52,293 nucleotides of DNA, from the NCBI GenBank assembly GCA_020328155.1, contig JAIXMX010000006.1:3936-56228 (forward strand), written 5' to 3'. Position 1 is the stretch's first letter, and each line of letters opens with the position of its first letter. A program made the translations under genes and the position numbers. This stretch comes from Candidatus Endomicrobiellum agilis. Its GTDB lineage: Bacteria > Elusimicrobiota > Endomicrobiia > Endomicrobiales > Endomicrobiaceae. Below are positions 31,445 to 52,293 of the stretch, piece after piece. The notes under the pieces were generated by a model. The model did no database searches and was not told the origin of the DNA. It saw only the letters and a program-made list of their open reading frames with translations.

Positions 31445-32194
31445 TTATTTTCGTTTTTTTGCTATTTCGTATAGAACAACAGCCGAAGCACAGGACGCAT
31501 TTAGCGAAGATATTGTATTTGCTTGCGGAATTGATATTAAAAAATCGCTATTTTTCTTTGTTAGACTGCGAAGTCCGAAGCCTTCGCTTCCTATTATTAC
31601 CGCAAGAGGGAAAGGTAAATCGGCTTTTTCAAGCATTTGTTCGCCGGTTTCAGCGCCAATTATCCAAAACCCGTTTTTTTTTAATAAATCCATCGCCCTA
31701 TTGATATTTACAACTCTTGATATTGAAATATGCTCAACAGCTCCGGCAGAAGATTTCGACACGGTTTCATTTATTCCCGCAGCTCTCCATTTAGGTATTA
31801 CCACTCCGTCCACTCCGAAAGCCACGCAGTTTCTTATAATCGCGCCCAAATTATGCGGATCTTCAATACCGTCTAAAATTACAAGCAGCGGTTTCAGGGA
31901 CTTTTTCGCTTTTTCAATCAAATCCGGCAGCTCCGTATATTCCAGAGGGGAAACCTCCGCGACCACGCCTTGCGAATTTTCAGAAAATCTGTCGAGTTTT
32001 TCCGGCGGAACGCTGTGCAAGGCTATGTTTTTCCGCTTAGCAAGACTGATAATTTCTAAAATTGCCGCGCCTCTTGCGGTTTGAGAAATCATCACTTTAT
32101 TTACCGAACGCTTGCCGGCTTTAAGAAGCTCTAAAACCGGATTCCGCCCGTAAATAATGTTTTCCGACAGCTGATTATCGTTTTTGCCGTACAT
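31445..32194 (-). CDS. rlmB: 23S rRNA (guanosine-2'-O)-methyltransferase, TrmH/RlmB family
   Basis: The 249-residue SPOUT enzyme has an N-terminal L30e-like substrate-binding domain (IIYGRNPVLELLKAG to about residue 80) and a knotted SAM domain with its three motifs: ILDGIEDPHNLGAIIRNC, VIIGSEGFGLR and IPQANTISSLNASCASAVVLYE. RlmB methylates G2251 of 23S rRNA. This one is close in layout, but a tRNA target cannot be ruled out. AAAGGA lies six bases before the ATG. The DNA upstream is the truncated lipoprotein copy. Confidence 0.9.
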   Translation of the reverse strand: MYGKNDNQLSENIIYGRNPVLELLKAGKRSVNKVMISQTARGAAILEIISLAKRKNIALHSVPPEKLDRFSENSQGVVAEVSPLEYTELPDLIEKAKKSLKPLLVILDGIEDPHNLGAIIRNCVAFGVDGVVIPKWRAAGINETVSKSSAGAVEHISISRVVNINRAMDLLKKNGFWIIGAETGEQMLEKADLPFPLAVIIGSEGFGLRSLTKKNSDFLISIPQANTISSLNASCASAVVLYEIAKKRK

Positions 32195-32210: not shown

Positions 32211-32425
32211 ATATCGTCAGCGTCTTGATGTCGGTTTTGGCGTGGACGTGGGCGTCGGTGGCGGGCTTGGCGTTAATGTGGGTGACGGTGTTGCGTTGGC
32301 TCTGGATTAACCTTTTTAACAACAGTATTAACAGCAGTAGCAGATTTACTGCCATTCTGAAGCTGTTTATCACAGCCAGAGATTAAGCTTACAATTAAGA
32401 ACAACGATACTATATCTTTTCATGA
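32211..32425 (-). pseudogene. Truncated, frameshifted copy of the proline-rich lipoprotein gene
   Basis: Bases 32425-32300 repeat the 5' end of the gene at 33349-32690 almost base for base. The copy covers its signal peptide (SLISGCDKQLQ), its NGSKSATA segment and the following stretch. The first codons are one base out of frame with the rest. A second shift then leads straight into a Pro/Thr linker (TPSPTLTPSPPPTPTSTPK), followed by a stop. The middle and the membrane segment are missing. It lies just upstream of rlmB. Confidence 0.8.
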
Positions 32426-32443
32426 TTTTTTTACATACTCCCT

Positions 32444-32563
32444 ATGCGTTCTTTTCAAATTAAGGAGGTCTTCTCATTTGCCAATCGGCAATTCTGGGAC
32501 AAAATTAAAAAGTTGGAAGAGTACGATGAAATTATTACTTTAAAACCCAGCGGAGCAGTCTGA
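32444..32563 (+). pseudogene. Short ORF or gene fragment of unknown origin
   Basis: An ATG at 32444 opens 39 codons that read like real protein (KEVFSFANRQFWDKIKKLEE) and end at TGA. There is no ribosome site and the following DNA is broken. It may be the N-terminal stub of a lost gene, with its strand opposite to the lipoprotein copies on both sides. Confidence 0.3.
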
Positions 32564-32689
32564 TTACCAATTGTTTTGCCGTTATTCTTTTTACATTATC
32601 TATCTTGGAAATAGTACGTATTTCAAATACGCCGGCAGGCAGTTACGCGCGGACAATCACTGTATAGGATTTGTCCTGTTTCATTCTCA

Positions 32690-33349
32690 TCAGACATGTG
32701 CAGGCACATCACTGCCACCAGAAGGCGGAACACTAACGGCGCTCTTAGTCCTGTGCTTACGATGTTTTTTACCAGACGGAGCAGTATCTTTAGCAGGCTT
32801 ACCATCATCAGAAACATCATATATAGGAGCAGCAGGATCAGAACAATAAAGACCATTAATAGCAACAAAGGCCAAAATCGCAACCGCCACAATCTGAACA
32901 TACCAAGTCTTCACAAACGGCCATACAGATGACACAAACGACGGGCTTGGCTTGGGCGGCGGCGGCGATTTGGGTGTTGGCGTCAGTGTCGGTTTGGGTG
33001 TTGGCGTCGGTATCGGTTTGGGTGTTGACGTTGGCTTGGGTGTTAATATCGGCATTGGCGGCGGCGCGGGTGTTGGATTACTCTTCTTTTTTAGTCTAGC
33101 TTCAGCTTCAGCCTCAGCCGCGCGTCTGTCGTCTTGCTCTTCTCTTTTTATTTGGACAATCTCTTCGTCAAATTTACCGCCGTCCTTAAGATTAGCATCT
33201 TTGTCAACACTACCTGCATTAACATTCTGAGGATTAACATCCTTAGCAACAGTATTAATAGCAGTAGCAGATTTACTGCCATTCTGAAGCTGTTTATCAC
33301 AGCCAGAGATTAAGCTTATAATTAAGAACAAAGCTATCACTTTCTTCAT
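32690..33349 (-). CDS. Lipoprotein with coiled, Pro/Thr-rich rod and C-terminal membrane helix
   Basis: The 219-residue protein has a lipoprotein signal peptide with lipobox L-I-S-G-C (C17), a polar and acidic stretch, a helical KREEQDDRRAAEAEAEARLKK segment (68-89), a Pro/Thr/Lys rod (91-136, many x-P-T-P units), a hydrophobic helix (about 150-168), and a 50-residue tail with a K/H/R cluster (194-202). Lipid anchor, rod and second membrane helix suggest a tether across the envelope, recalling TonB rods or phage u-spanins in layout only. Asp at position +2 would argue for inner-membrane retention by enterobacterial rules. AGGAGAGG precedes the ATG. The family is unknown. Confidence 0.8.
   Translation of the reverse strand: MKKVIALFLIISLISGCDKQLQNGSKSATAINTVAKDVNPQNVNAGSVDKDANLKDGGKFDEEIVQIKREEQDDRRAAEAEAEARLKKKSNPTPAPPPMPILTPKPTSTPKPIPTPTPKPTLTPTPKSPPPPKPSPSFVSSVWPFVKTWYVQIVAVAILAFVAINGLYCSDPAAPIYDVSDDGKPAKDTAPSGKKHRKHRTKSAVSVPPSGGSDVPAHV
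32952..33072 (-). repeat. 18-base-type tandem repeats encoding the Pro/Thr rod
   Basis: Repeated GGTGTTGGCGTCGG-like units, read on the minus strand as (x-P-T-P-K-P) blocks, make up residues about 93-132 of the lipoprotein. Such repeats can change length by slippage. The plus-strand ORF over them (GVGVG-rich) is a shadow. Confidence 0.7.
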
Positions 33350-33361
33350 ACTTATCCTCTC

Positions 33362-33430
33362 CTAATATTTATCATAGCCAGCTTTGTTATAGCCATGTCT
33401 ATCATAGCCTTCTTTATCATAACCTTTCAT
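33362..33430 (-). CDS. Tiny ORF made of four GYDKx repeats
   Basis: An ATG at 33430 opens MKGYDKEGYDRHGYNKAGY and ends DKY before TAG at 33362, 22 residues in all. It is built from four 15-base units, each encoding G-Y-(D/N)-(K/R)-x, and all four stay in frame. The stop lies 12 bases before the lipoprotein start and overlaps its ribosome site region. No clear Shine-Dalgarno precedes it. Pentad repeats of this type occur in longer bacterial and phage proteins, so it could be a remnant. It could also be a short peptide that couples translation into the lipoprotein. Confidence 0.45.
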   Translation of the reverse strand: MKGYDKEGYDRHGYNKAGYDKY

Positions 33431-33464
33431 TTATGCTTATATGCTGGCGCGGCTACAAAGTATA

Positions 33465-33719
33465 TCAAATAATGTATCTGCGTATCCACGCTTTTATAAT
33501 GCGATTGTCCTGAATAATCAAATACTCAAACAATTCAAATGCTTTATAGGTTTCGTTCAAACTTAAACCGCTTGCCTTTACCACACGCTGAGCGGTACTT
33601 CGAGCTATTATCAAAATTAGAGACATCTGATCAATAATACGAACTAGTTTACCGATAATTACAGGGAGAATACCTACAATTACAGGCAGACTACCAGCAA
33701 TTATAGAGAGACCGGGCAA
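33465..33719 (-). CDS. Small hypothetical protein, 84 residues
   Basis: An open frame from a TTG at 33719 reads GLSIIAGSLPVIVGILPVI, then a helical, amphipathic part (STAQRVVKASGLSLNETYK and FELFEYLIIQDNRIIKAW). The first third holds a 21-base near-repeat (G-S-L-P-V-I-V, G-I-L-P-V-I-I). GAGGG lies just upstream but very close to the TTG. It sits 34 bases before the GYDK ORF and on the same strand as the lipoprotein, as if part of one transcript. It may be the tail of a longer, broken gene. No family was recognised. Confidence 0.4.
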   Translation of the reverse strand: MPGLSIIAGSLPVIVGILPVIIGKLVRIIDQMSLILIIARSTAQRVVKASGLSLNETYKAFELFEYLIIQDNRIIKAWIRRYII

Positions 33720-34126
33720 TTACCCTCTTATTTATTATATTAAGATTTTTAAGAATTTCTGGACATAATTTGGATAAAAAAGATTAACTATATGTAAAAG
33801 AATACAATAGTAATTTTGTTTTCTCTATATTTTTATCTCTTTACTTACAGCGTACTTCTCCTTTTATTTTCTTGGAGACGAGGGGGTATAGTCATGCCGC
33901 CGGTGAAAACAGCAACAGTTTAGAAAAGGTTAGAGATACTTGCTGAACTTTCACAGTGTAAAATTGAGATTTAGCATCAAAAGAACAGGCACATAGAAAA
34001 GTTTCAAACCTTTTATCCTTTAAGCTATAAAGAAATTACAATAAACAAAAAAGAGCTGCATTCTGTCTTTTTATATAAGCAAACCGTCTAATCTCAAAGA
34101 TAAGAATTAACAACTGAAAATTATGA
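33720..34126. other. Spacer upstream of the membrane protein
   Basis: AT-rich sequence with no supported gene. A TATAAT-like box lies near 33740 on the minus strand and could serve the 33719 ORF, but no -35 partner is convincing. Confidence 0.3.
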
Positions 34127-34139: not shown

Positions 34140-34940
34140 ATGAACTTTGACTTTATTATAACTTTTTGCCTGCCCGTTTTAGCGGGTTCTATATATTTTT
34201 TTATGGCGTTTGAAACTAAACGTATAAGCAAATTCCGCTCGATAATGTTTGGAGAAACAGCTTTCAAAAAAATTGAGCTAGCTTTTATAATGTTTGGGAT
34301 ATATTTCATTACGCGTCCGCTTCAGAATATCTTAGTATGGCATCCTCTGCCCTTAATGATAAACTGCGCAAGACAATTTTTTTTAATGGCAATTATCGCT
34401 CCGTCAATTCTTGTTGCAATTTTCCACTGGGTACCTATGTCCGGCGGCATTCCGCGTTCAACAAAATTTGCCGCTTACATAATCGGCGGGCTAATGGGTA
34501 TTATTTTCTTTTTACTGGATAGCATCGCTATAAGCGGTTTAGGAGTTTCTTCGTCATGGAAAATCGTCAATGTGTATGATCTCATATGGGTTCAGTCCGG
34601 AACACCCATAATACAAATTGTGTTTATACATTTAATTTGCCAGTTTGTCTCGCCTATGGGATTTCTGCTTCTTGCCGCGGCATACGTAAGGCACAAGCGG
34701 CATAACTATCAGTATGCAAATGTTTATAATTTAATACCGACAAAATGGAAATACCTTGAAATAAGTTTAATCGTTTTTGCAGCTTCGTTTTTCTCAGCTG
34801 GAATTGCCGCAATTTTTGGCACTTATCGCACTTACCCATATATATGGTCAATTTACTTTATAGGCGCGGTTCTCTCCGGCATTTTTGAGCTGATAAGCAT
34901 TAAACTCCCGCCGCGCGAAGCGCCCAGCGATTTAAAATAA
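34140..34940 (+). CDS. Orphan seven-helix membrane protein
   Basis: The 266-residue protein has about seven hydrophobic helices (near residues 5-25, 45-65, 80-100, 112-130, 150-178, 205-225 and 232-252), short loops and no large soluble domain. I recognise no family motif. The layout is like the sensor part of 7TM receptors or an integral stability factor, but no kinase is attached. Possible functional residues are the W-H-P-L-P loop near residue 68 and PMGF near residue 172. There is no ribosome site beyond AGGA directly touching the ATG. It stands alone. Confidence 0.75.
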   Translation: MNFDFIITFCLPVLAGSIYFFMAFETKRISKFRSIMFGETAFKKIELAFIMFGIYFITRPLQNILVWHPLPLMINCARQFFLMAIIAPSILVAIFHWVPMSGGIPRSTKFAAYIIGGLMGIIFFLLDSIAISGLGVSSSWKIVNVYDLIWVQSGTPIIQIVFIHLICQFVSPMGFLLLAAAYVRHKRHNYQYANVYNLIPTKWKYLEISLIVFAASFFSAGIAAIFGTYRTYPYIWSIYFIGAVLSGIFELISIKLPPREAPSDLK

Positions 34941-51114: not shown

Positions 51115-51630
51115 TTAAATCTTTTGTAGTTCTTTAGATTCCATTAAACCTTTCTGTAGTTCTTTTATTTTAAATTTCTTTGTAAATTGACGCAGTAATT
51201 TTTTATTCTTTGGCAATAATTCTTCTAAAGAAACACATAAATTCAATTCAAGTCGTCTTCCAAGTATCTTAAAAACAACTGCATCTCCAGAACAAATTTG
51301 AATATTTTGTGTATTCTTATTGTTATATAAATAAGATAAAAGTTCCGTTTCGCCGTCATCAAGTTTATCAATATTAAAACAGTTAAAATCAGTCTTGAAC
51401 GCAGATAAATCTGAGCTTGTTTGAGAAATACACCTTACGTTATCGCAATTACTTAAATCTATTTTATGTTTTTTGCCAGAAACTCTATAATATTTTGTTT
51501 CTTTTTTAATAATTTCAGAAATTACAATATTATATTTTTTTATCAATAATTCCCAAGAATTTGTTCTAAAAGCCTCAATAATCACACAAGTATCACACAA
51601 AACTAATGTCAATTTTGGAATCACCGCCAC
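51115..51630 (-). CDS. PIN-like nuclease domain protein paired with ImmA
   Basis: The 171-residue protein has the acidic set of a PIN-fold RNase: D13 (VLCDTCVIIEAF), a glutamate at 39 or 44 (ISEIIKKE), D91/D92/E94 (KLDDGETELL) and D116 (CSGDAVVFKIL). PIN domains cut RNA and are common toxins. The GTG at 51630 lies inside the end of the ImmA gene, an overlap of 38 bases, so both are made together. Later GTG or TTG starts are possible. No antitoxin of the usual small type is beside it. The peptidase may serve as the partner. Confidence 0.65.
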   Translation of the reverse strand: MAVIPKLTLVLCDTCVIIEAFRTNSWELLIKKYNIVISEIIKKETKYYRVSGKKHKIDLSNCDNVRCISQTSSDLSAFKTDFNCFNIDKLDDGETELLSYLYNNKNTQNIQICSGDAVVFKILGRRLELNLCVSLEELLPKNKKLLRQFTKKFKIKELQKGLMESKELQKI

Positions 51631-52293
51631 TCCATAAATTCATTTCGAGTAAATCTGAAATATTTCTTTCTAAATAATTTGCGCATTGTTTTGTTGATAT
51701 TTCACCAATTTTTAGAGCTTCAAAAGCTAAATTAATGTACCTTTCGGGGAATTTATTTAGTCCGCCCATATTTTGTTCAGTATTCTGCTTTACCTTGATT
51801 TCGCACGCATATTTTTTAATTTTACCTATGATTTCTTTAGTATGCTCAAAATCCACATTATAAACTTTTCGTATGCGCCACATCAAAGCCTCTATAGAAA
51901 CAACAAATCTTCTAGAGATAGAAACGATATCGTTAAAAGACAATTTCTTACTATTTTTCCCTAAAAAATCATCAACTGACTCCATTATACTGTCTTTTGG
52001 CATTAAAAGCTCGCTAGCAAAAACATTTGCATATTCCTCCATAACGTCTTTTTGCTGCTTATTAACAAAACTCCAAGTTAACAGATGAAATAATTCATGC
52101 GCTAAATCAAAATTACGTCTATACATAGAATTCGTAACATTTAGTGCTATTGCAGAACCTACCTCATTTGAATGATAACAAACTGCGGAACTTAAACGAA
52201 GATCAAGATTAAATATTTTTACAAAATATTTTTCCTCAAGTATCCTAAACAGGCTTTTTCCTGGATACTTCCCCAAGCCAAGTTTATGCCGAA
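51593..52293 (-). CDS. ImmA/IrrE-family metallopeptidase (N-terminus beyond window)
   Basis: The reading frame stays open to the window edge, so the start is outside. A TTG at 52276 is only the first possible start here. The visible part has the zinc motif H-E-L-F-H in RRNFDLAHELFHLLTW (residues 60-64 from that TTG) and the third ligand in EEYANVFASELLMP. The upstream frame reads RHKLGLGKYPGK, typical of the linker after an XRE-type HTH in such proteins. ImmA peptidases cleave phage repressors or regulators, and fusions are often regulators of toxin or mobile modules. It overlaps the PIN gene. Confidence 0.85.
   Translation of the reverse strand, partial: RHKLGLGKYPGKSLFRILEEKYFVKIFNLDLRLSSAVCYHSNEVGSAIALNVTNSMYRRNFDLAHELFHLLTWSFVNKQQKDVMEEYANVFASELLMPKDSIMESVDDFLGKNSKKLSFNDIVSISRRFVVSIEALMWRIRKVYNVDFEHTKEIIGKIKKYACEIKVKQNTEQNMGGLNKFPERYINLAFEALKIGEISTKQCANYLERNISDLLEMNLWSGGDSKIDISFV

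Follow-up and report, generated by a model that had tools for sequence, protein, structure and literature searches.

A lineage-specific lipoprotein family of constant leader and variable mature part, probably borne on mobile elements, in an Endomicrobium-type symbiont

Described systems of comparable design

The Erp (OspE/F-related) proteins of Borrelia cp32 join one promoter, leader and localisation sequence to many diverse external parts and are encoded on prophage plasmids (PMC10016077). The symbiont family described here is alike in that it appears to consist of mobile-replicon paralogues in which one leader has been recombined onto diverse mature parts. Unlike Erp, it shows no sequence match to those proteins, has in most members a Pro-rich spacer and an additional membrane helix, and lies in chromosomal arrays, with hexamer repeats in the leader, in an Endomicrobium-type (Elusimicrobiota) genome. 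Another likeness is to the sequence-variable mosaics and potential mobile units of phytoplasmas, host-restricted bacteria in which such units disseminate genes for secreted proteins and cause genome rearrangement (PMC3633829). Phytoplasmas belong to another phylum and their effectors are defined by the absence of a membrane helix, whereas the symbiont has integrase/DnaB/Rep3 elements and lipidation.

Phage u-spanins of the T1 gp11 type share the N-terminal lipobox and the later membrane helix (PMC6139136). They end at their C-terminal helix and are encoded in lysis cassettes, unlike the symbiont proteins, which continue into a tail, occur in many copies and have no recognisable lysis genes nearby. 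Within the genus, plasmid-like contigs of three congeners (G065, G032 and G035) carry Rep, DnaB and ParA genes, with lipobox proteins in G065 and G032. Several of those in G065 have a Pro/Thr spacer and a helix, but none of these lipoproteins is similar in sequence to the symbiont family, and there are no chromosomal arrays on such a scale in what was examined. Lipoproteins are not mentioned in the main text of two Endomicrobia genome papers (PMC11257099, PMC8809381), and neither describes the family.

The locus in the window

The window is the whole stretch of DNA analysed, 52,293 nucleotides from Candidatus Endomicrobiellum agilis. It encodes a 219-residue lipoprotein on the minus strand (32690..33349; ATG start, 219 codons), for which a first-pass annotation had proposed a lipid anchor, a Pro/Thr rod, a membrane helix and a basic tail. 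The sequence shows the features of all four. The signal peptide and lipobox (residues 1-17, 33299..33349, ending LISGC) belong to the constant module common to about 70 places in the genome, and the lipobox reads LISGC17-D18. A charged stretch follows, then a 51-residue Pro/Thr-rich spacer, of which 22 residues are Pro and 9 are Thr (residues 88-138, 32936..33088), a predicted membrane helix of mean Kyte-Doolittle value 2.2 (residues 151-169, 32843..32899) and a K/R-rich C-terminal tail with the basic cluster KKHRKHRTK (residues 170-219, 32693..32842). Here and throughout the family, helices were called from hydropathy alone and lipoboxes from pattern.

The protein had been thought to fit no known family, and the searches agree. 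Pfam and NCBIfam returned only low-complexity Pro-rich matches, which gives no homology to Erp/OspE/OspF and no membership of the TonB/VirB10-like rods (TraV, E 0.28, below its cut-off); one major-family member likewise had no Pfam match. PHROG, PADLOC and fold comparisons were also without a match. AF2 models (pLDDT 66 and 74) matched nothing in the PDB or among viral structures at E <= 0.001, there was no sequence match in the PDB, and pattern scans of genome-contig and viral-contig collections gave no relatives, nor did plasmids yield any for the lipoprotein.

Two small ORFs lie upstream on the same strand, at the gaps of 34 bases (84-codon to 22-codon ORF) and 12 bases (22-codon ORF to lipoprotein gene) that had been reported. 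The 84-codon ORF (33465..33719, minus strand) has a TTG start and contains a 21-bp degenerate tandem repeat. It matches itself alone, on both strands and across a short inverted/tandem repeat, and among 41 congeners it gave no match better than E 0.03; it is also missing from the other arrays examined. It is probably no gene, since it has no homologue in its own genome or in those congeners. The 22-codon ORF MKGYDKEGYDRHGYNKAGYDKY (33362..33430, minus strand) is a piece of a gene for a GYD-repeat lipoprotein, with 75-87% DNA matches to the repeated units of such long genes in loci L026, L035, L027 and L042. The GYD-repeat lipoproteins are a second, repeat-built family, in which numerous GYDxx units of 5 residues (15-bp DNA repeats) come after a lipobox; genes for them lie on the minus strand at L026:3471-3863, L026:5483-6160 and L035:2557-3243.

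Downstream of the lipoprotein gene is the truncated copy that had been described (32211..32440, minus strand), a frameshifted leader and the beginning of the Pro-rich part, without the helix. The copy is out of frame; its positions 32304-32404 align to 33231-33331 of the intact gene with 94% identity over 101 bp (E 9e-41). Directly 3' of the lipoprotein gene lies one copy of an intergenic repeat of about 100 bp with a hairpin (32583..32684, minus strand), common to the cassettes; iterated nhmmer counts 16 of these repeats across the array loci fetched.

All of these features fall in an island that has no counterpart in relatives (32211..34028). In blastn against the congeners, alignment on the rlmB side reaches 32209/32210, which makes the left edge at 32211 exact, and it restarts at 34029 or 34034. 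On one flank is rlmB (31445..32194, minus strand; RlmB equivalog TIGR00186, E 1.4e-67), on the other a conserved membrane-protein gene (34140..34940, plus strand) that in congeners lies beside folD and serS. Congeners keep both ancestral adjacencies intact, cysS adjoining rlmB and folD adjoining the 34140 gene; in the symbiont, the island stands between rlmB and the 34140 gene, and cysS (contig C2) and folD (C21) each border another array. A third pair, yidC and a HAD gene, are near neighbours in relatives and are here split between two arrays (C7 and C22), so that three ancestral adjacencies are broken and arrays stand at every broken end. One more array sits between gcvPA and gcvPB. In another congener, G063, that site is occupied by a DNA methyltransferase gene and a neighbour (L124:1247-3696), which are eroded in G065.

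Judged from these alignments, the island is best read as a recombinant junction that joins the rlmB side to the folD-neighbour side. In the simplest history, elements would have inserted at several sites and the insertions would then have recombined with one another. An assembly chimera at the window junction seems unlikely, as the stretches compared hold no long, near-identical counterpart of the island, the best match being 86% over 116 bp.

The genome-wide family and its leader

The symbiont's own genome (1,285,918 bases on 23 contigs) was searched, and the arrays were studied as fetched stretches. Of the two proteins that the first-pass annotation had proposed for profile searches, the 84-residue ORF led only to itself, whereas the 219-residue protein led to 73 places, mostly through residues 1-45. 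Dozens of paralogues align with its N-terminus (E 1e-6 to 1e-13), which is beyond chance. These places lie mainly in tandem arrays on contigs C2, C7, C10, C11, C18, C20, C21, C22 and C23. A family profile built from 19 members marks 71 places in the same genome and has no credible match in 41 congeners, where it gave a single chance-level match of 20 residues; the congeners vary in completeness, some being partly incomplete and one a 99%-complete 4-contig genome.

From the fetched stretches, 50 distinct members were extracted. They have in common MKK, a signal peptide, a lipobox and then about 20 residues, and the upstream DNA is often conserved too. The residue at position +2 of the lipobox is Asp in 29, Gly in 15, Asn in 4 and Ser in 2. 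The mature chain is 60 residues or longer in 45 members, and 35 of these combine a lipobox, a Pro/Ser/Thr-rich spacer of about 65 residues, one membrane helix (starting at a median of 65 residues past the cysteine) and a divergent tail, the tail beyond the helix being 50-130 residues. Homologues without the helix, which had been named as evidence against the original reading, amount to only about 10 of the 45 by hydropathy. Lys/Arg residues average 2.2 after the helix vs 1.5 before it (Wilcoxon p 0.027). In their C-terminal parts 21 members have one divergent domain in common, two further pairs are alike and the rest are singletons, so that, as in Erp, a single leader/lipidation module is joined to unrelated mature parts. 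Many fragments and frameshifted copies occur among the family places. The suspicion that the locus had been both expanding and decaying is supported.

The leaders frequently contain a tract of the hexamer TATATG, in 2-12 copies, which reads ICICIC in the signal peptide. Every one of 31 tracts in the fetched loci lies within 25 bases after an ATGAAA/G, where shuffles predict 0.4 tracts, and exact leader tracts number 30 genome-wide vs 0 in the 41 congeners. By counting, pN/pS is 0.37 in the signal peptide, about 1 in the spacer and 1.35 in the C domain. Diversifying selection, to which the excess of pN over pS in the C domain might point, was dropped because a codon model allowing for base composition and kappa (F3x4) placed omega close to 1 (0.5-2.7, never significantly different from it), with no significant pair and no 2dlnL above 2.3. 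On these estimates the leader is constrained and the body loosely constrained, a description that makes no claim of positive selection. At least 40 open frames persist at divergences of 0.4-1.5 substitutions per codon; in a simulation of substitutions alone and no constraint, 6-25% of frames remain open at 0.25-0.7 per codon. Frame survival suggests constraint, and is read no more strongly because intact copies were picked for analysis.

Genes of plasmid type occur in the array loci. They encode a tyrosine integrase (PF00589, E 3e-23; 4 loci by tblastn), a ribbon-helix-helix (RHH)-like protein with weak MatP_C/Arc matches (at least 5 loci), a DnaB-like helicase (PF03796, E 2e-32; 2 loci) and a Rep3 initiator (PF01051, E 3e-7; 2-3 loci). 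Many arrays end at contig ends, and the island in the window itself holds no integrase, RHH or replication gene. Homologues of the DnaB protein (48-53% identity) are encoded on 7-kb plasmid-like contigs of G032 and G035, together with ParA- and Rep3-type genes and in one case a lipobox coiled-coil protein (identities read from sequence). In G065, a near-complete congener with small plasmid-like contigs, three contigs of about 5 kb hold genes for several lipobox proteins that combine a Pro/Thr spacer and a helix, and a lipobox-helix-charged-tail gene lies between gap and ychF. The proteins on the congener plasmid-like contigs have the layout of the family and no sequence similarity to it. The association with mobile replicons, as for Erp, is read from gene neighbourhood here and from the plasmid-like contigs of congeners. 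We infer that plasmid-like elements carry proteins of such layout genus-wide, with sequences that diverge too fast for alignment, and that the great expansion is confined to this genome within what was searched.

Some further observations concern these loci. The three small G065 contigs (C2-C4 of that genome; L125, L126 and L127) code largely for exported proteins, those with a lipobox among them, and have one DnaA_N-like replication gene; in the gap/ychF interval of G065 a fragment (L121:6115-6348) matches the phage-type replication family REP_ORF2-G2P (PF23343, E 1e-8). Another symbiont lipoprotein family, beginning MKKAISAVLTLLLISGCVAPPRQL, has about 10 copies beside DnaB or RHH genes (L033, L025, L023, L031 and L029). 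At L030:6012-8163, identical genes of 181 and 154 residues by an assembly gap (an N run read as X) form an apparent duplication that may be a scaffolding artefact.

Weighing the explanations

As read from this genome, about 70 copies of a constant module precede divergent Pro-rich, helix and tail parts, in arrays beside plasmid-type genes and at synteny breakpoints. We consider it probable, with some reserve, that the 219-residue protein is an isolated member of a lineage-specific, element-borne family with an Erp-like role, in which a constant leader is paired with a variable mature part and a second membrane anchor is added. The locus, which had been taken for a self-contained undescribed system, is then an outpost of a genome-wide and apparently element-borne family. 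Plasmid-like elements would have inserted into the chromosome; the competence genes that Endomicrobium is reported to have kept and to express (PMC8809381) offer a possible way in for their DNA. Cassettes would then have duplicated and recombined through their shared modules, and recombination between two insertions could have fused rlmB to the 34140 gene and left the island between them. By established lipoprotein biology, Cys17 would be lipidated by Lgt, followed by signal peptidase II (Lsp). The predicted helix would stop transfer in the inner membrane and leave the tail in the cytoplasm; the Pro/Thr spacer would lie in the periplasm if both anchors sit in the inner membrane, or else form a bridge to the outer membrane. 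The Asp+2 sorting rule stems from enterobacteria. Such proteins may make up a variable envelope layer that alters dealings with the flagellate host or excludes rival phages and plasmids, which is the weakest step of the argument. A cytoplasmic tail would argue against a role purely in surface display.

The arrays could also be selfish, decaying baggage, cargo without benefit to the symbiont that was amplified by copying and recombination and is now eroding. We hold this to be somewhat improbable. The abundant fragments and frameshifted copies, the omega values close to 1 and the one congener species whose related-layout proteins lie chiefly on small contigs agree with it, but purifying selection acts on the signal peptide and at least 40 frames, chosen as intact, are still open despite their divergence. 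Exclusion, in which each element's double-anchored lipoproteins block related plasmids or phages, seems unlikely. Lipoproteins are a known class of exclusion protein, TraT and phage Ltp among them, and plasmid and integrase genes accompany the family here, while proteins of its layout lie on plasmid-like contigs of congeners; yet PADLOC gave chance-level matches only, which also speaks against a defence role, the Cor match reached only E 0.088 and came from a second lipoprotein family, and at least 50 copies are more than exclusion requires.

Copy number bears equally on the likeness to phage u-spanins drawn by the first-pass annotation, which is unlikely to be an identity. The lipobox followed by a later membrane helix is the layout of a unimolecular spanin, which in a phage lysis cassette ties the outer to the inner membrane (PMC6139136). 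Such a function is highly improbable because there are dozens of copies, a tail of 50-130 residues continues past the helix (50 in the 219-residue protein) and lysis genes are lacking: no holin or endolysin was recognisable among the ORFs around the arrays, a PHROG scan of ten representatives gave no credible lysis match, and the sole spanin match (E 0.06) came from a different protein. We give as little credence to the earlier proposal that the three ORFs form an operon of their own, on a single transcript, for an undescribed trans-envelope system. It has the tight same-strand spacing in its favour, but one of its small ORFs is without homologue and absent from other arrays examined, and the other is a GYD-repeat remnant.

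The element-borne family with an Erp-like role admits a bolder version, which we regard as doubtful: that the plasmids of this genus encode a class of variable envelope protein not recognised before, anchored twice and acting as the molecular interface of the symbiosis. Each protein would have a constant lipid-anchor leader, a Pro/Thr spacer that crosses the periplasm, a helix that stops transfer in the inner membrane and a tail, cytoplasmic or facing the host, that diversifies, and slippage of the leader hexamer would tune export. The family appears to occupy tens of kilobases of a 1.3-Mb genome, although Endomicrobium-type symbionts are portrayed as eroding, and it is also tied to genome rearrangement. 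If expressed, its members would be candidate molecules of the bacterium-flagellate interface, and host specificity would become testable.

At the edge of the window, two adjacent minus-strand ORFs (51115-52291) suggest by eye an ImmA/IrrE-like peptidase and a PIN-like partner.
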